Below, piece by piece: positions 30,334 to 41,082 of a stretch of 41,082 nucleotides of DNA (its first letter is position 1; each line of letters begins with the position of its first letter). This DNA comes from Actinomycetota bacterium. Its GTDB lineage: Bacteria > Actinomycetota > Acidimicrobiia > IMCC26256 > PALSA-610. The stretch spans positions 1 to 41,082 of the forward strand of contig SXIR01000100.1 of the NCBI GenBank assembly GCA_005772765.1. The letters are read 5' to 3'. Made by a program: the position numbers and the translations under genes. A model generated the notes under the pieces. That model had not been told where the DNA came from and ran no database searches. It was given only the letters and a program-made list of their open reading frames with translations.

Positions 30334-30920
30334 TGCTCGATTCCGTTCGCCTCGAGGGCTTGCGCGATGCGTTGCAGACCGAGGCGCATGCGCGATTTCG
30401 CAGTGCCCTCAGGGATGTCCAGTTCGACGGCGACCTCGCGATAGGTCTTGCCGTCGAAGTACGCGAGCTGAATCGCAGCCCGTTGTTCGGCTGGCAGCGC
30501 CGCAACCGCCTCTCGCACCCGTTCCGCGGCCACGAGTGCCATCGCGAGTTCGTCGACGTCAGGCGTCGACCTCGCCATCGCGCCATCCCGCTCGGTGCGG
30601 CGCCGTCGTGCTTGCTCGCGTCGCACGTAATCGACCGCGCGACGATGCGCCAAGGTTCCCAGCAGCGTCCGCAGTCGACCACGTTCGGGATCGAACAACT
30701 CGGGGCGTTCCCACATCGTGACGAAGACGTCCTGGGTGACGTCCTCGGCCGCGTGACGGTCACCGATCACCCGAGCCGCGAGGCCGAAGACGAACGAGCC
30801 GAACTGGTCGTAGAGCTCGCCGAGGGCGCTTTGGTCACCGTCGGCCATCCGAGCGCACACCGACCGCTCCCAGCCGGCGATGTCGAACTCGCGCCGCGAC
30901 TCGGCCCGATCAGTGGCCAT
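30324..30920 (-). CDS. ECF sigma factor (SigK/ECF19-like)
   Basis: This 198-residue group 4 sigma factor has sigma region 2 (ALGELYDQFGSFVFGLAARV, DVTQDVFVTMWERPELF, LLGTLAHRRAVDYVRRE) and sigma region 4 (AALPAEQRAAIQLAYFDGKT, then YREVAVELDIPEGTAKSRMR). The TLAHRRAVDYVR segment is typical of the SigK/ECF19 group paired with RskA-type anti-sigmas. ATG 30920 was chosen as the first start before region 2. It overlaps the downstream anti-sigma gene and is divergent from the redox gene run at 31123, which is a likely target together with its own promoter. Confidence 0.93.
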   Translation of the reverse strand: MATDRAESRREFDIAGWERSVCARMADGDQSALGELYDQFGSFVFGLAARVIGDRHAAEDVTQDVFVTMWERPELFDPERGRLRTLLGTLAHRRAVDYVRREQARRRRTERDGAMARSTPDVDELAMALVAAERVREAVAALPAEQRAAIQLAYFDGKTYREVAVELDIPEGTAKSRMRLGLQRIAQALEANGIEQWT

Positions 30921-30992
30921 GCCATGATTGTGCCCGATGCTCGGCGCCATGTGGACGTCCCTCCGGGGGTCTGTTCGCCACGGTGCGGGTCT

Positions 30993-31037
30993 GCGGATCA
31001 CTCCCGATCGGCCGGCGACGATCTCGGACTGATCCGC
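30993..31037. promoter_or_regulatory. 8-bp inverted repeat in the sigma/oxidoreductase divergent region
   Basis: GCGGATCA (30993-31000) and TGATCCGC (31030-31037) are exact inverted copies separated by 29 bases, lying in the 202-base region between the ECF sigma gene and the flavin oxidoreductase gene. It may be a looped operator or chance. I see no reliable -35/-10 pair to anchor it. Confidence 0.35.
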
Positions 31038-31122
31038 GTGGAGGCCCGTCACCGAACTACCCGAGGCACCGTCGACGCCCCAGACCGCCGCCGCCGCCCG
31101 AGACCCGCGAACGTGAGGAACG

Positions 31123-32544
31123 ATGCAGCGATGCGACCTGGTCATTGTCGGCATGGGGTCGGGCGGCATGGTGGCGGCCGAGTTCGCGGCGAGCCTCGAT
31201 CTGCGGGTCGCGGTGATCGAGCGTCACCGCGTCGGCGGTGACTGCCTGTGGACCGGTTGTGTGCCGAGCAAGGCGCTCCTCGCTGCTGGCAAGGTCGCCC
31301 ATCACATGCGCCACGCAGCCGAGTTCGGGATCGGTTCGGTCGAACCAGATGTCGACCGCGCTGCGGTCTGGCGGCGCATACGACGCGTCCAGGAACAGAT
31401 CGCGACCGGTGACGACGACCCGGCGCGCTTCGTCGACCTCGGCATCGAGTTGGTCATGGGCACGGCGCGCCTCGACTCGCCCACGGCGGTCCACGTCGAT
31501 CTCCGCGACGGTGGCACCCGAACCCTCGACACTCGTTACGTGCTGCTCGCGACGGGCTCGCGTCCCGCAGTCCCGGCGATTCCCGGTCTCGACGAGGTCG
31601 GGTACGTGACCAGCGAGAACCTGTTCGAACTCACCGATCCCCCGGGCAGCTTCGTGAACATCGGCGGCGGACCGATCGCGGTCGAGATGGTGCAGGGCTT
31701 CACGCGCCTCGGGATCCAAACGACGTTGCTCCAAAAAGCCGATCGGATTCTTCCGCGTGACGAACCCGAACTCGTCGACTTGCTCGTCGACGCGCTCCGC
31801 GCCGAAGGGGTCGATCTTCGCTTCGACGTCGTCACCGATCGCGTCGCGTCCGAGGGCGGGCGCAAGGTCGTGTATGGCACCGAACGCGGCGAAGCTCGAC
31901 GATGGGAGGCCGACGAAATCCTCGTCGCCGTCGGTCGGCAGCCCAACGTCGAGGGGCTCGGACTCGAAGCACTCGGTGTCGAGATCGGCCCGCGCGGCGT
32001 GGTGGTCGACGAGCGGATGCGCACGAACGTTCCGTCGATCTACGTGGCCGGAGACCTCGCGGGCCGCTACCTCTTTACCCACTCGGCGGCGTACGAAGGC
32101 GTCCGGGCCGTGCGCGACATGTTCTTCCCGGGGAAGGGGAAGGCGACGGCCGGGGTGCCCTGGTGCACGTTCACGGACCCGGAGTTGGCCCACGCCGGGC
32201 TCACCGAATCGGAGGCCCGCGCACATCACGGCGACGATGTGCAGGTCTGGCGTCAAGACCTCGCGCACAACGACCGAGCCCAAGCCGATGGGGCTGAGCA
32301 CGGCGCGATCGTATGCATCACCGCCAAGGGCCGCATTGTCGGAGCGCACGTGCTCGCACCCGCCGCGGGCGAGATGATCCACGAGTTCGCGCTGGCAATC
32401 GAACGCGGCATGAAGCTGTCCGATCTCGCAGCCTTCGTCCACGTGTATCCGACCCTTGGCACCGCCGTCGGGCAGCTTGCCGGTGAGGCAGCGTTCGCGA
32501 AGGCCGAGAAGCTGCGTTGGCTCGTGCGGCGCCGGTCGGATTGA
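31123..32544 (+). CDS. FAD/NAD(P)-dependent disulfide oxidoreductase (mercuric-reductase-like, atypical C-terminus)
   Basis: This 473-residue flavoprotein of the glutathione-reductase/lipoamide-dehydrogenase superfamily has an FAD-binding VIVGMGSGGMVAAE, the redox-active CLWTGC (Cys41, Cys46), an NAD(P)-binding VNIGGGPIAVEM and the FAD motif VPSIYVAGDLAG. The catalytic HPTLSE motif of dihydrolipoamide dehydrogenase and its His-Glu pair are replaced by YPTLGT (Tyr442, Thr447), as in some mercuric-reductase-like proteins. There are no C-terminal vicinal cysteines for Hg(II). The substrate is unknown, perhaps a small thiol or quinone. Good Shine-Dalgarno GAGGA five bases before ATG 31123. First gene of a run leading to the selenoprotein. 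Confidence 0.88.
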   Translation: MQRCDLVIVGMGSGGMVAAEFAASLDLRVAVIERHRVGGDCLWTGCVPSKALLAAGKVAHHMRHAAEFGIGSVEPDVDRAAVWRRIRRVQEQIATGDDDPARFVDLGIELVMGTARLDSPTAVHVDLRDGGTRTLDTRYVLLATGSRPAVPAIPGLDEVGYVTSENLFELTDPPGSFVNIGGGPIAVEMVQGFTRLGIQTTLLQKADRILPRDEPELVDLLVDALRAEGVDLRFDVVTDRVASEGGRKVVYGTERGEARRWEADEILVAVGRQPNVEGLGLEALGVEIGPRGVVVDERMRTNVPSIYVAGDLAGRYLFTHSAAYEGVRAVRDMFFPGKGKATAGVPWCTFTDPELAHAGLTESEARAHHGDDVQVWRQDLAHNDRAQADGAEHGAIVCITAKGRIVGAHVLAPAAGEMIHEFALAIERGMKLSDLAAFVHVYPTLGTAVGQLAGEAAFAKAEKLRWLVRRRSD

Positions 32545-32552
32545 ATCTGGCG

Positions 32553-33044
32553 ATGCCGATCGTTCCGCTCACCAACGACAACTGGGGATTCACGACAAAT
32601 TGTTTCGTGTGCGAATCACGCAACGAGTCGGGGTTGCGCATCCCCTACTTCCACGACGTCGACGCACAGCTCGTCTACGCCGAATTCGAGCTGGACGATC
32701 GGTTCAGCGGCGCGCCGACGTGGGCCCACGGCGGTGTCTCCCTTGCGATCTGCGACGAGGCCATGGCTTGGGCGACGATCGCCATCCACCACAAGTGGGC
32801 GGTCACCAAGGAGTCCACGGCGGCGTTCGATCGCCCGATCGTGATCGGTCGCCGTTACCGGTGTGAGGCTCGGATCGACTCGGTGAACGACGAACACATC
32901 GCAACGGTCGCCACCATCACTGCCATCGAGTCGGCCAAGACCTGCGTTCGGACGACGGCAACGATGTCTGTGCTCAGCGCCCTCCAGGCTCCGTCGTTGG
33001 GCATCTCGCTCATCGGTGAGCACGAGGACTATCTACGCCCGTAG
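32553..33044 (+). CDS. PaaI-like hotdog thioesterase
   Basis: This 163-residue hotdog-fold protein has the N-terminal NCFVCESRNESGLR, found in a thioesterase subgroup, and WAHGGVSLAICDEAMAW, carrying the HGG-x6-DE active-site pattern. It probably hydrolyses acyl-CoA thioesters. ATG 32553 starts nine bases after the flavoprotein stop and is preferred over a frame extending into that gene. It is followed nine bases later by the SDR gene. Confidence 0.85.
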   Translation: MPIVPLTNDNWGFTTNCFVCESRNESGLRIPYFHDVDAQLVYAEFELDDRFSGAPTWAHGGVSLAICDEAMAWATIAIHHKWAVTKESTAAFDRPIVIGRRYRCEARIDSVNDEHIATVATITAIESAKTCVRTTATMSVLSALQAPSLGISLIGEHEDYLRP

Positions 33045-33053
33045 TCTCGGCCC

Positions 33054-33830
33054 ATGACCATCGAATCGCTGTTCTCATTGCGCGGCAAGATCGCGCTCGT
33101 CACCGGCGGGAGCCGGGGCATTGGCCTGATGATCGCCCGCGGCTACCTCGATGCCGGAGCCAAGGTGTACATCTCGAGCCGCAAGGCCGAGGTATGCGAT
33201 GCCGTCGCAGCCGAGCTCTGCGCGATCGGCGAGTGCATTTCGATTCCGGCCGACCTGTCGAGCGAGGCCGAGTGCAATCGCCTGGCCGGAGTCATCGCCG
33301 AACGCGAGCCCGTGCTGCACATCCTGGTCAACAACGCGGGAGCGACCTGGGGCGAACCAATGGCGACGTTCCCGGCCGATGCCTGGGACAAGGTGCTCGA
33401 CCTCAACGTGAAGAGCGTCTTCTTCTTGACGCGGGCGTTGCGACCTCAGCTCGCCGCGGCAGCAACCGCTGACGATCCCGCCCGCGTCATCAACATCGGT
33501 TCGATCGACGGCATCCACGTGCCGCTCATGGAGACGTACTCCTACTCCGCGAGCAAGGCCGCGGTTCACCAGCTCACGCGGCACCTTGCGAAGCAACTCG
33601 GCCGCGAACAGATCACGGTGAACGCCATCGCTCCCGGTCCGTTCGAGTCCAAGATGATGGCAGCAACGTTGCGCGACTTCGGTGATTCGATCGCGGCGCA
33701 GTCGCCGCTCGGTCGCATCGGCCGAGCCGACGATATGGCCGGCGCCGCGATCTTCTTGGCGTCCCGAGCGGGTGCCTACTGCACCGGCACGGTGTTGCCG
33801 GTCGACGGCGGCATCGCGACGACGAAGTGA
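33054..33830 (+). CDS. Short-chain dehydrogenase/reductase
   Basis: The 258-residue classical SDR has the cofactor loop TGGSRGIG (17-24), NNAGA (93-97), catalytic Ser150 and Tyr164-xxx-Lys168, and the substrate-side AIAPGPFESKMM. It resembles FabG/RhlG-type ketoacyl-CoA or -ACP reductases; the exact substrate is unclear. The stop overlaps the next gene's start by one base (TGATG), so the selenoprotein behind it is translationally coupled. Confidence 0.93.
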   Translation: MTIESLFSLRGKIALVTGGSRGIGLMIARGYLDAGAKVYISSRKAEVCDAVAAELCAIGECISIPADLSSEAECNRLAGVIAEREPVLHILVNNAGATWGEPMATFPADAWDKVLDLNVKSVFFLTRALRPQLAAAATADDPARVINIGSIDGIHVPLMETYSYSASKAAVHQLTRHLAKQLGREQITVNAIAPGPFESKMMAATLRDFGDSIAAQSPLGRIGRADDMAGAAIFLASRAGAYCTGTVLPVDGGIATTK

Positions 33831-34366
33831 TGGAGACCACGGGTGCAATCGGCACCGACCTCTCTGATGTCGAAGTCCGTCGAGCTTCGGGCGAGATCGT
33901 GACGCTCGGTGCGCTGATCGACTCGACCACCGTGATCGTCGCGATTCGTTACTACGGTTGAATACCCTGCCTCGAGTACCTCACGCGTGTTCGTGAGGGA
34001 CAGCGGGCTTGCACGACACCCGGCACACGCATCCTCGCGATCGGCACGGGCGCGGACTTCCAAGCCCAACGATTGATGGAAGAAGGCATCGGCTTCGAAT
34101 GCCTCGTCGATCCCGATGCGAACTTCTACGAGCGCGTCGGGATCGGCCGCGTGACCTGGCTGCACTGGTTCCGGCCTCACGTTGTCGCGAACTACCTCCG
34201 CGCGTTCCGATCCGGACACCGGCAAGGTCGCATCACCGGCGATCCGCTGCGCCTCTCCGGCGTCGTCGTCACCGACGCGAACAGCGTCGTGCGCTGGGCC
34301 CATCTCGCGACCGAAGTTGGCGACTACCCCACCATCGAATCGGTCTTCGACGCGGCCACGACCTGA
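33830..34366 (+). CDS. Selenocysteine-containing peroxiredoxin-like protein (AhpC-TSA_2/SelU type), UGA read as Sec
   Basis: Reading from ATG 33830 to TGA 34364-34366 gives 178 residues if the in-frame TGA at 33959-33961 (codon 44) is decoded as selenocysteine. The surroundings are IVAIRYYG-U-IPCLEYL, a UxxC redox motif at the exact position of CxxC in thioredoxin-fold AhpC-TSA_2 proteins. The C-terminal half (FECLVDPDANFYERVGIGRV, SGVVVTDANSVVRWAHLATE) continues the family without other stops. It probably reduces peroxides or disulfides. Standard gene finding would give a 43-codon piece or only an internal fragment starting near 34073. A bacterial SECIS-like hairpin follows the TGA. Nonsense mutation is the alternative, but both sides keep good coding quality. 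Confidence 0.82.
33979..33998 (+). promoter_or_regulatory. Candidate bacterial SECIS hairpin
   Basis: CCTCACG (33979-33985) and CGTGAGG (33992-33998) form a perfect 7-bp stem with loop CGTGTT (33986-33991). The loop begins 24 bases after the UGA, and its second base is G, both within the usual rules for bacterial SECIS elements (loop at about 16-37 bases from UGA, G among the first two loop bases). A weaker lower stem can form between 33965-33969 and 34001-34006. SelB would bind it to deliver Sec-tRNA. The hairpin lies inside coding sequence (YLTRVRE). Confidence 0.75.
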
Positions 34367-34378
34367 CTCCGATCCGGT

Positions 34379-35206
34379 TCACCCGACCGGGAAGAACACC
34401 GCGCCGACCGTCCCCGGTCCGGTATGCGCACCCACCGACGGGCCAATCGCATAACGCACGAGTTCGCCGACGCACCCGCCCTGCTCGAGGCGAGTGATGA
34501 GGGCGTGCGCAAGGTCGTCGGTGCGCGCGTCGCCGACGCCGATGCGTTGCGCGCGTCCACCCGCGTGCCGCTCGATGTAGGTCGCCATCGTCTCGACCGC
34601 GTCGGCGTCACTCCGGACGCGCGCGAGCGGGCGCATTTGTCCCCCTTCGAGCGCGAGCACCGGCGCACCCTCGCCGCTGTCCGCATCGGCGGCCAACCGA
34701 CCTCCCGAGCGCGCCAGACCGAGTGCGCCGACGATGAACACGTTGCCGACCGACGCCGCGACCTGTAACGCAGCCTGGCGCGCCTCGTCGAGCGACCCGC
34801 CGCGACCCAGCACTTCGCCGGCCGCCCACACGCAACAACCCACAGCGAAACTCGCGGTCTCGGTGTCGACGGTGGTGACCGGGATTCGGCTGAGTTCAGC
34901 CGCGATGGTCGCCGAGTTCAGCGTCGCCGATGTGTTCGACCCGACGTGGATCGACAACACGGCCTCGGCACCAACCTCCGCGGCCCGTTCGTAGGCCATC
35001 AGGAACGCTCCGGGTGCCGGCGCCGCCGTCGCCACCGCCGCGCCACCTGCGAGTCGGGTGTAGAAGTCGTCGTCAGACAGGTCGACCCGCTCGTGGAACT
35101 CTTCGCCATCGACGGTAACGATGAGCGGGACGACATCGACTCGATACCGGTCGACGAGCACCACCGGCATCTGCGCGTTCGAATCGGTGACGAGCGCGAC
35201 CTTCAT
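34379..35206 (-). CDS. DegV/FakB-family fatty-acid-binding protein
   Basis: This 275-residue protein matches DegV: VALVTDSNAQMP at the start, ATAAPAPGAFLMAYE, IHVGSNTSATLNSA and VDTETASFAVG. DegV/FakB proteins hold a fatty acid while FakA phosphorylates it to acyl-phosphate. The gene starts inside the plsY stop (ATGA, 4-base overlap), and PlsY uses acyl-phosphate, so the pairing fits metabolically. No fakA is in the window. It converges with the selenoprotein gene, 12 bases apart. Confidence 0.9.
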   Translation of the reverse strand: MKVALVTDSNAQMPVVLVDRYRVDVVPLIVTVDGEEFHERVDLSDDDFYTRLAGGAAVATAAPAPGAFLMAYERAAEVGAEAVLSIHVGSNTSATLNSATIAAELSRIPVTTVDTETASFAVGCCVWAAGEVLGRGGSLDEARQAALQVAASVGNVFIVGALGLARSGGRLAADADSGEGAPVLALEGGQMRPLARVRSDADAVETMATYIERHAGGRAQRIGVGDARTDDLAHALITRLEQGGCVGELVRYAIGPSVGAHTGPGTVGAVFFPVG

Positions 35207-37837: not shown

Positions 37838-38866
37838 TCAGCCGCCCGAGACGTCCTGGACCCGCTTGCGACCGGCGCTGATCCACGGCATCATCGCCCG
37901 GAGCTCGGCGCCGACCTTTTCGATCGGGTGATCGATCGCCTCTTGGCGAAGCCGGTTGAAGTTGGGTCGGCCGTTCTCGTTCTCGGCCACCCACTCCTTG
38001 GCGAACTCGCCGCTTTGGATCTCACCGAGAATCTTCTTCATCTCGGCTTTGGTGTCCTGGGTGACAACGCGCGGACCGCGAGTGAGATCGCCGTACTCGG
38101 CAGTGTCGCTGATCGAGTAGTGCATTGCGGTAATGCCACCCTCGTAGATCAGGTCGACGATCAGCTTCACCTCGTGCAGCGTCTCGAAGTATGCCGACTC
38201 GGGCTGGTAGCCCGCTTCGACCAACGTCTCGTACCCGTTCTTGATGAGTTCGACAAGACCACCACACAACACGACTTGTTCGCCGAAGAGGTCGGTCTCG
38301 GTCTCTTCCTGAAAGGTCGTGTCGAGCACGCCCGCGCGGGTTCCGCCGATCGCTTGCGCGTAGGCAAGCGCAACGTCTTTCGCCTTGCTGGTCGCGTCTT
38401 GCGCGACCGCGACGAGGCAAGGAACTCCGCCGCCTTCCTCGTAGGTGCGTCGGACGAGGTGGCCCGGGCCCTTCGGCGCGATCATCCAGACGTCGATGTC
38501 GGCCGGCGGCTTGATCCGGCCGAAATGGATGTTGAAGCCGTGCGCGAACGCCAACGACTTCCCCGCCGCCAGGTTCGGCGCGATGTCGTCGTCGTAGACC
38601 TTCTTCTGCTCGGTGTCGGGAAGCAACACCATGATGATGTCGGCCGCGGCCACTGCCGCACCCGTGTTCATCACCGTCAGACCGGCCGACTCGGCTTTCG
38701 CCTTGCTCGACGATCCCTCCCGGAGCCCGACGATCACGTCGACTCCGCTCTCCTTCAGGTTCAACGCGTGCGCGTGGCCTTGGGAGCCGTAGCCGAGAAT
38801 GGCGACCCTCTTGTCGGCGATCAGTGCCGAGTTGGCAGCATCGTCGTAGTACACGGTGGCGGGCAT
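37838..38866 (-). CDS. ilvC: Ketol-acid reductoisomerase
   Basis: The 342-residue class I enzyme performs Mg-dependent alkyl migration and NADPH reduction in valine and isoleucine synthesis. It has the Rossmann loop [14 protein letters not shown], the [15 protein letters not shown] motif, and acidic metal ligands in [12 protein letters not shown] and [13 protein letters not shown]. Length is typical. A Shine-Dalgarno AGGAGA lies about six bases before the ATG at 38866. It is transcribed after ilvB and ilvH, 80 bases downstream of ilvH. Confidence 0.97.
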
Positions 38867-38946
38867 TGGAGGTTCTCCTGGTCAGCAACGAGCGTCGGAA
38901 CCCGGCCAGTATCGCCGGATTGCGAGGCGTCGGGCGAATGGACGGG

Positions 38947-39480
38947 TCAGGCGCGAGCGGCTCGAACGGCGCGGAGTTTGACTGGCTGACGCGCCAACTT
39001 CGCCAGCGCGATGCGGCCGGTGCGCTGTTGTTCGACGATGCCGAAAGGCCGCACCAGATCGCTGAACGCGTCGAGTTTGTCAGGCTCGCCCGCCACCATG
39101 ATCGTCATGGCCTCGAATCCGACATCGACGATCTTCGCCTCGAAAATGGCCGTGAGTTCGGTGACCTGGCTTCGTGCTTCAGCGGTTGCCTTCACGGTCA
39201 CCATCATCATCTCGCGTTCGACGCCTTCGTCGTGGGCGATCTCACCGATCTTGATGACGGGAATCAACTTGTTGAGTTGCTTCACGATCTGTTCGAGCGG
39301 ACTCGCATCGGCATCGACGACGATCGTCATGCGCGAAAAGCGTTCGTCTTCGGTCGGGCTGACGGCGAGCGAGACGATGTTGAACCCGCGACGTGAGAAC
39401 AACGCGGCGACTCGGGTGAGCACACCGGCTTTGTTCTCGACGAGCACCGAGAGAATGTGATGCCGTGCATTGAAGGACAT
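38947..39480 (-). CDS. ilvH: Acetolactate synthase small (regulatory) subunit
   Basis: The 177-residue protein has an N-terminal ACT domain (HILSVLVENKAGVLTRVAAL, SRRGFNIVSLAVSPTED) and the C-terminal ALS_ss domain (GFEAMTIMVAGEPDKLDAF). It binds valine and controls IlvB. Its ATG is one base after the ilvB stop (TGACATG), so the subunits are co-translated. Confidence 0.96.
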   Translation of the reverse strand: MSFNARHHILSVLVENKAGVLTRVAALFSRRGFNIVSLAVSPTEDERFSRMTIVVDADASPLEQIVKQLNKLIPVIKIGEIAHDEGVEREMMMVTVKATAEARSQVTELTAIFEAKIVDVGFEAMTIMVAGEPDKLDAFSDLVRPFGIVEQQRTGRIALAKLARQPVKLRAVRAARA

Positions 39481-39481
39481 G

Positions 39482-41082
39482 TCAGCGTCCCGCCTTTCGG
39501 TCCATGGCCGGGTCGAGGATGACGTCGGAGTTCGACGTACCGGCGGCGACCATCGGGTACACCTTCTCGCGGTAGTCGGTGCGGAAGTCGATGACGACCG
39601 GTCGATCGTTGATTTGGTTCGCCTTCTCGATCGTGGTCGCGACGTCGTCGGCGCTGTCGACGCGCATGCCGACGCATCCCATCGCCTCAGCCCACTTCAC
39701 GTAGTCCGGCAGGTCCGGGGACAGGTACACCTCGCTGTAGCGCTCTTCGTAGAAGAGTTCCTGCCACTGGCGCACCATGCCGAGGTAGGCGTTGTTCAAG
39801 ATCGCAATCTTCACTGGGATTCGTTCTGCGGTCGCCGTGACAAGTTCTTGCGCAGTCATCTGGAAACAACCGTCACCGTCGACAGCCCAGACCATCCGGT
39901 CCGGCCGGCCAACCTTGGCGCCGATCGCCGCCGGCACCGAGTAGCCCATCGTGCCGAGGCCGCCAGAGTTGATCCAGGTGTAGGGGTGCTCGAACTTCCA
40001 GTACTGACTCGCCCACATCTGGTGCTGACCGACGCCCGACGCAAGGATCGTGTCGTCGGGGCACTGCGCGTGCAGTTGTTCCAGCACGTACTGCGGCTTC
40101 AACGGACCATCTTCGGTCTGTTCGTAGACGAGCGGGAAGTCCTGCTGCCACTGACGAATCTGAGCGATCCACGCGGACAAGTCGGGCTTGGCGTGCTTTG
40201 ACTGCTCCGACTTGGTCGCCTTGATCAGCTCTTCGATCACGAACTTGCAGTCGCCAACGATCGGGACGTCGGGACGGCGAACCTTGCCCTGTTCGGCCGG
40301 GTCGATGTCGACGTGGATGATCTTCGCGTGCGGGGCGAATCCGTCGAGCTTTCCGGTCACGCGGTCGTCGAAGCGAGAACCGAGAGCGATCAGCAGATCG
40401 GCTTCTTGCATCGCGGTGATGGCGGTGTAGTTGCCGTGCATTCCTGGCATGCCGAGGCACAGCTCGTGACTGTCGGGGAACGCGCCACGCGCCATCAATG
40501 TCGTCACCACCGGCGCGCCGGTCAACTCTGCGAACGCTCGCAGCGCGTCGGCGGCGCGCGCCTTCAGGATCCCACCACCCGCATAGATGACGGGCTTGCG
40601 GGCCTGGCCGATCAGGCGCGCCGCATCCTTGATCTGTTTCGGGTGACCCTTGACCGTCGGCTTATACCCGGGGAGGTCGACCGAGTCGGGCCAGTACCAC
40701 TCCATGGTCTGGTTGGCGATGTCCTTGGGCAGGTCGACGAGCACCGGTCCGGGCCGCCCGGTGGTCGCGACGTGGAACGCTTCTCGCACGACGCGCGGGA
40801 TGTCGTTCGCGTCGGTGACGAGCCAGTTGTGCTTCGTGATCGGCATCGTGATGCCGACCGTGTCGCACTCTTGGACCGCATCGGTGCCGATCACCGAGTA
40901 GGGAACCTGTCCGGTGACGCACACGAGCGGAACGCTGTCCATGTAGGCGTCGCACAACGGCGTGACGATGTTCGTGGCGGCCGGTCCGCTCGTGACCATC
41001 GCGACGCCAGGACGTCCGGTGGCGTGGGCGTAGCCACTCGCCATGTGCCCGGCGCCTTGTTCGTGGCGCACGAGGATGTGGC
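39482..41082 (-). CDS. ilvB: Acetolactate synthase large subunit (N-terminus outside window)
   Basis: The thiamine-diphosphate enzyme is open to the right edge, so its N-terminus is missing. It starts inside [14 protein letters not shown], which holds the glutamate that activates ThDP. The C-terminal cofactor motif is [17 protein letters not shown] with [17 protein letters not shown]. It joins two pyruvates, or pyruvate and 2-oxobutyrate, as the first committed step for branched-chain amino acids. The operon order is ilvB-ilvH-ilvC. Confidence 0.97.

Follow-up and report, generated by a model that had tools for sequence, protein, structure and literature searches.

In Prx-like enzymes an attacking residue works together with a resolving Cys, and this pairing serves below as the template for the roles of Sec44 and Cys47. 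SelL itself carries the motif UxxU, and the prostamide/prostaglandin F synthase, a Cys enzyme of animals, reduces an endoperoxide. Among described selenoproteins, the Prx-like thiol:disulfide oxidoreductases of PF00578 carry UxxC or UxxU (PMC13188914, PMC9312934), and an AhpC/TSA family selenoprotein assigned to pfam13911/cd02970 carries UxxS (PMC9312934, PMC13188914). According to the rules set out in a 2026 review, a bacterial SECIS hairpin has a loop of 3-9 nt, a stem of 4-16 bp, a G within the first two loop bases, a spacing of 16-37 nt and an energy of -7.5 or lower (PMC13188914). In a 2006 survey the Actinobacteria were one of three phyla counted as rich in selenoprotein families (PMC1794560), and a study of sponges reported SelA/SelB in most symbiont bins, from various phyla, the bins including the class Acidimicrobiia (PMC5649159). 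Our literature search found no paper on the selenoproteins of this class, and the strings Actinobact-, Actinomycet- and Acidimicrobi- do not occur in the main text of the 2026 review (PMC13188914). Genes in which UGA encodes Sec are easily cut or lost in annotation.

Here we describe one such candidate in the window, by which we mean the whole stretch of 41,082 nucleotides that was analysed, and we are highly confident that it is a selenoprotein gene; it adds a new member to the known kinds (Table 1). The frame that opens at ATG 33830 is interrupted by a single stop, TGA 33959-33961, and runs on for 134 more codons to TGA 34364-34366, just as a preliminary description had proposed, for a product of 178 residues in which U44 stands in the context RYYGUIPC and the UGA takes the first position of UxxC. 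An open frame by itself is weak evidence in this G+C-rich window, because 101 of its 788 TGA triplets, counted on both strands, pass a filter that asks for 100 or more open codons after the TGA and for a start 20 or more codons ahead of it. Among these 101, a CxxU or UxxC motif is found in 6, a SECIS-like hairpin in 12, and both in one, which is the gene described here. The third codon position has the highest G+C of the three on either side of the UGA (0.72 before, 0.80 after).

Table 1. Features of the locus, with positions counted from the first base of the window.
Feature	Coordinates	Strand	Remarks
FAD pyridine nucleotide-disulfide oxidoreductase, MerA/LPD-like	31123..32544	+	head of the same-strand run; reaches no cut-off among the 25 NCBIfam families listed
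4HBT hotdog thioesterase-like gene	32553..33044	+	start codon chosen by the analyst; ORF listed from 32517
SDR oxidoreductase, directly upstream	33054..33830	+	stop TGA 33828-33830 shares one base with the ATG of the selenoprotein gene
Very probable selenoprotein gene, SelL-related/AhpC-TSA_2 Prx-like, UxxC	33830..34366	+	178 aa, Sec at residue 44; from frame and homology
In-frame UGA (U44), predicted to be read as selenocysteine	33959..33961	+	opposite UGA in 30/39 and a Cys codon in 9/39 homologues
Cys47 codon, presumed resolving Cys of UxxC	33968..33970	+	invariant in the 11-row alignment A2
Candidate bacterial SECIS hairpin	33979..33998	+	7-bp stem, 6-nt loop 33986-33991, G at loop position 2, -9.6 kcal/mol

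Homologues are spread through the class and beyond. At the family level a match of 1e-8 or better was found in 9 of 14 genomes. The class sample gave matches at 1e-14 in 40 of 395 genomes (31 with one UGA, 9 without), and the phylum sample gave matches in 18 of 396 (15 with UGA, one of them with two adjacent copies), three of which (G000, G020 and G026) overlap the class sample; the share of Sec forms in these counts is perhaps inflated, because the query was itself a sequence of the Sec type. Elsewhere in the phylum, two adjoining homologues with one in-frame UGA each were seen at G418:C130:56128-57200. The phage and plasmid collections that we searched contained no match at 1e-5. The ten lowest of the 40 class matches were given no locus, except that G009 and G011 from among them were included as L003 and L002. 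A scan of genome contigs added two loci, one from Acidimicrobiaceae (L011) that entered alignments A1 and A2, and one with 50 residues matched (L012) that was left out.

The preliminary description had placed the TGA where the first Cys of a CxxC motif is expected, and the alignment with Cys homologues bears this out: in 39 aligned homologues the place is taken by UGA in 30 and by a Cys codon in 9, by nothing else, and the downstream frame is intact. From the phylum search, which gave 16 UGA rows, only G000 and G020 are represented among the 39, and 8 class genomes that all have UGA, at whatever position, by stop count are left out. Six close orthologues from three other families of the same order, at 44-50% identity, all read RYYGUIPC with the UGA at the same place, and the tree groups them with the window gene in a single clade (support 98/91; L081 and some other branches are flagged as long). 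The tree needs four changes between Sec and Cys, a number as low as which was reached in none of 500 shuffles of the labels. The host genome also holds a distant paralogue (L010, G000:C24:19142-19642) that reads RHFGULHC and has its own in-frame UGA and SECIS-like hairpin; its subfamily recurs in the family, with a Cys form in G009 and G011, genomes without Sec machinery found.

A stop codon inside an otherwise continuous gene might also mean that a Cys codon has mutated, or has been misread, to TGA and that the gene is broken. The window comes from a single assembly of 80% completeness and relatives with Cys forms exist, both of which would suit a pseudogene or a sequencing error; the same UGA in 30 of 39 homologues from many assemblies speaks strongly against it. 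Selection points the same way: 10 of 11 pairs, several near saturation, have dN lower than dS on either side of the UGA (in the pair L084/L086, for example, dS is 2.74 and dN 0.22 before the UGA, and dS is 0.96 and dN 0.13 after it). In the eleventh pair, L098/L101, the 11 codons before the UGA are unchanged and variation is found only downstream. Together with the SECIS-like hairpin and the Sec machinery genes of the host, both described below, these data leave the broken gene with next to no credibility, and we proceed with the selenoprotein reading.

The candidate hairpin (CCUCACG-CGUGUU-CGUGAGG) starts at the 18th base past the UGA, with its loop 24 nt past it, and it agrees with all the published SECIS rules as the review gives them (PMC13188914). 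A count of base pairs in a fixed stem, compared with synonymous copies, gave an average of 7.0 of 8 pairs for the window gene and the six orthologues together, versus 5.1 (reached in 0 of 1000); taken by itself the window gene missed significance, its score being reached in 60 of 1000 synonymous copies. Since the Cys rows also stood above their own null in this count (z 3.1), and since shifting the stem by -2 gave a similar score over the whole set of 30 UGA rows, we adopted a hairpin test based on the rules instead. In this test 20 of the 30 UGA rows pass, versus 2.7 under a synonymous-codon null (maximum 8; reached in 0 of 200), with 2 of the 20 using another hairpin at spacing 17 and the other 10 rows failing, and among the Cys rows 1 of 9 passes versus a null of 0.6 (reached in 95 of 200). 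In 27 of the 30 UGA rows the four bases at the loop are AGUU or AGGU, always at the same position. A Gln stands in the protein column at the SECIS loop (residue 53 of the window gene) in 27 of the 30 Sec rows, compared with 2 of the 9 Cys rows, and may be a trace that the RNA element has left in the protein; the rows behind the hairpin and Gln counts are related, so they are not independent.

The fate of the selenoprotein reading had been tied in the preliminary description to the presence of sel genes in the genome, and several of them came to light. The host tRNA-Sec, on contig C139, scores 68 bits against a cut-off of 47 and has the anticodon TCA (UCA). SelD, the selenium donor enzyme, scores 359.7 bits (L037, G000:C218:11544-12467) and looks from its sequence like a selenoprotein too, with an in-frame UGA of its own at HGAGUACK. 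SelB is present as a C-terminal piece only, a weak match (L073, G000:C81:5750-5881, E 3.1e-6) cut off where contig C81, 5901 bases long, ends, and selA was not found in our search of the 80%-complete assembly. In relatives selA lies directly 5' of selB (in G004, for instance, on C8 at 38309-39622 and then 39652-41412), so a single assembly gap could account for both the missing selA and the cut selB. Within the window itself Rfam and ARAGORN gave no match, selC lying on another contig.

Across the class, tRNA-Sec is found in 246 of 395 genomes. All 31 genomes with the UGA form have tRNA-Sec, selA or selD: tRNA-Sec is above the cut-off in 24, under filters that are stricter and can lose weak matches, and the remaining 7 have selD in every case and selA in 6. 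The machinery is present in 4 of the 9 genomes with the Cys form (G172, G285, G297 and G346, all with tRNA-Sec). For the other five, whose assemblies are 64 to 95% complete, selA, selB, selD and tRNA-Sec were all below the cut-offs in G009 and G011, and a search limited to tRNA-Sec and selD found neither in G177, G180 and G193. The association of machinery with form has a Fisher p of 1.9e-4, not corrected for kinship, and with three independent Sec/Cys pairs on the tree a sign test is not significant. Genus g8 holds both states, Cys forms in genomes without machinery found (L002 and L003; G009 and G011) and the UGA form with tRNA-Sec in G008 and G010, which is consistent with the loss of the machinery and the change to Cys having gone together. 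Set against L004 and L006, the loci L002 and L003 mark a recent loss or gain of Sec in this genus. With both forms at hand, the genus lends itself well to asking what a Prx-like enzyme gains from Sec.

From these computed features of the locus and the genome we infer that a ribosome arriving at the UGA would insert Sec, with SelB bringing tRNA-Sec(UCA) under the direction of the hairpin, and a failure of insertion would leave a stub of 43 residues. The codon could instead be read as Trp or Cys, through a changed code or plain readthrough. We found nothing in favour of that explanation and give it very little weight, for UGA also serves as a stop, ending both this same gene and the SDR gene, the alignment partner of the UGA is Cys and not Trp, tRNA-Sec(UCA) and SelD are present, and the hairpin is enriched in the UGA rows and not in the Cys rows.

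The probable selenoprotein gene stands last in a same-strand run, after the FAD disulfide oxidoreductase, the 4HBT gene and the SDR gene, and a scan of 30900-34600 for promoters and terminators returned nothing. The coupling to the SDR put forward in the preliminary description is present here, with one shared base, and it does not extend to the relatives that we inspected: the flanks of the six close orthologues, with 1500 bases upstream (only 261 for L076), yielded no SDR, so the coupling says little about function. Near L008, L010 and L083 the opposite strand shows weak SDR matches. Downstream of the window gene, on the other strand, come DegV, PlsY and IlvC, with roughly 1.1 kb separating PlsY from IlvC. 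The orthologues L079 and L080 (G085 and G190) are followed by PlsY and IlvC on the other strand, and L076 has a 4HBT-like piece immediately upstream (83 residues, 36%) and a DegV piece further downstream. Because PlsY/IlvC, DegV and 4HBT neighbours recur beside orthologues, the shared gene order supports vertical descent.

Judged by its sequence, the product has a thioredoxin/peroxiredoxin-like domain and is probably a SelL-related, Prx-like selenoprotein that acts as a thiol peroxidase or a thiol-disulfide oxidoreductase. For the chemistry, the reductant and the substrate we infer the following from Prx-like enzymes and from the gene run. Sec44 would be the attacking residue, on a peroxide or on a disulfide, Cys47 would resolve it by forming a Se-S bridge, and Sec44 would be restored by a thiol or a flavin disulfide reductase; a peroxide seems slightly the likelier target. 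A run that holds an FAD reductase, a 4HBT gene and an SDR gene suggests both a reductant and a lipid-related setting, and the FAD oxidoreductase is a possible reductant of the selenoprotein. Action as a thiol:disulfide oxidoreductase of the thioredoxin/ResA kind, a variant of the selenoprotein reading and not exclusive with it, deserves tentative consideration: the product carries UxxC; in its first part the A2 profile finds matches in a thioredoxin-like protein (2.9e-7) and, at 1.1e-6 and weaker, in structures of ResA; and the 2026 review enters Prx-like proteins with UxxC under the thiol:disulfide oxidoreductases (PMC13188914). It has against it that the best and longest match of the profile to a solved structure is a Prx-like synthase, the prostamide/prostaglandin F synthase (PDB 9us9; 1.8e-15, positions 12-170), and that Pfam and NCBIfam place the product with AhpC-TSA_2 and the SelL-related proteins. 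An AlphaFold model from a two-row alignment was poor (pLDDT 53) and was set aside. Joined together, these threads would make this a Prx-like family whose standing form, in the class and elsewhere in the phylum, is Sec, with Cys mostly secondary, the SECIS loop having stamped a Gln (CAG) into the protein, and the host FAD disulfide reductase recycling Sec44 to reduce lipid-derived peroxides; as a whole we consider this combination rather unlikely.

Set beside the described systems, the product resembles each in part. Its best curated NCBIfam family is NF040769, the SelL-related redox proteins, which it matches over residues 12-174 of 178 (E 5e-28), but its score of 97.9 bits is below the curated cut-off of 120. 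At 0.001 the family is matched by each of the 11 A2 members. The UxxU of SelL proper is absent, the product having UIPC, that is, UxxC. The AhpC-TSA_2 label of the preliminary description stands, with PF13911 matching residues 64-160, after the UGA, at 36.2 bits over a cut-off of 27, and its SelU label applies only loosely, the nearest curated bacterial family being the SelL-related one. The Prx-like selenoproteins of PF00578 share with the product a UxxC with Sec first and a Prx-like domain, whereas the product fits AhpC-TSA_2 better than AhpC-TSA, which covers residues 7-108, across the UGA, at 24 bits, slightly below its cut-off of 26. The pfam13911/cd02970 selenoprotein belongs to the same Pfam family and also has Sec at the first position, but in UxxS where the present product has UxxC. 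The prostamide/prostaglandin F synthase, in the profile match given above, sets its CxxC opposite the UxxC, and it differs in being a Cys enzyme of animals, whereas the bacterial product is a putative Sec form.
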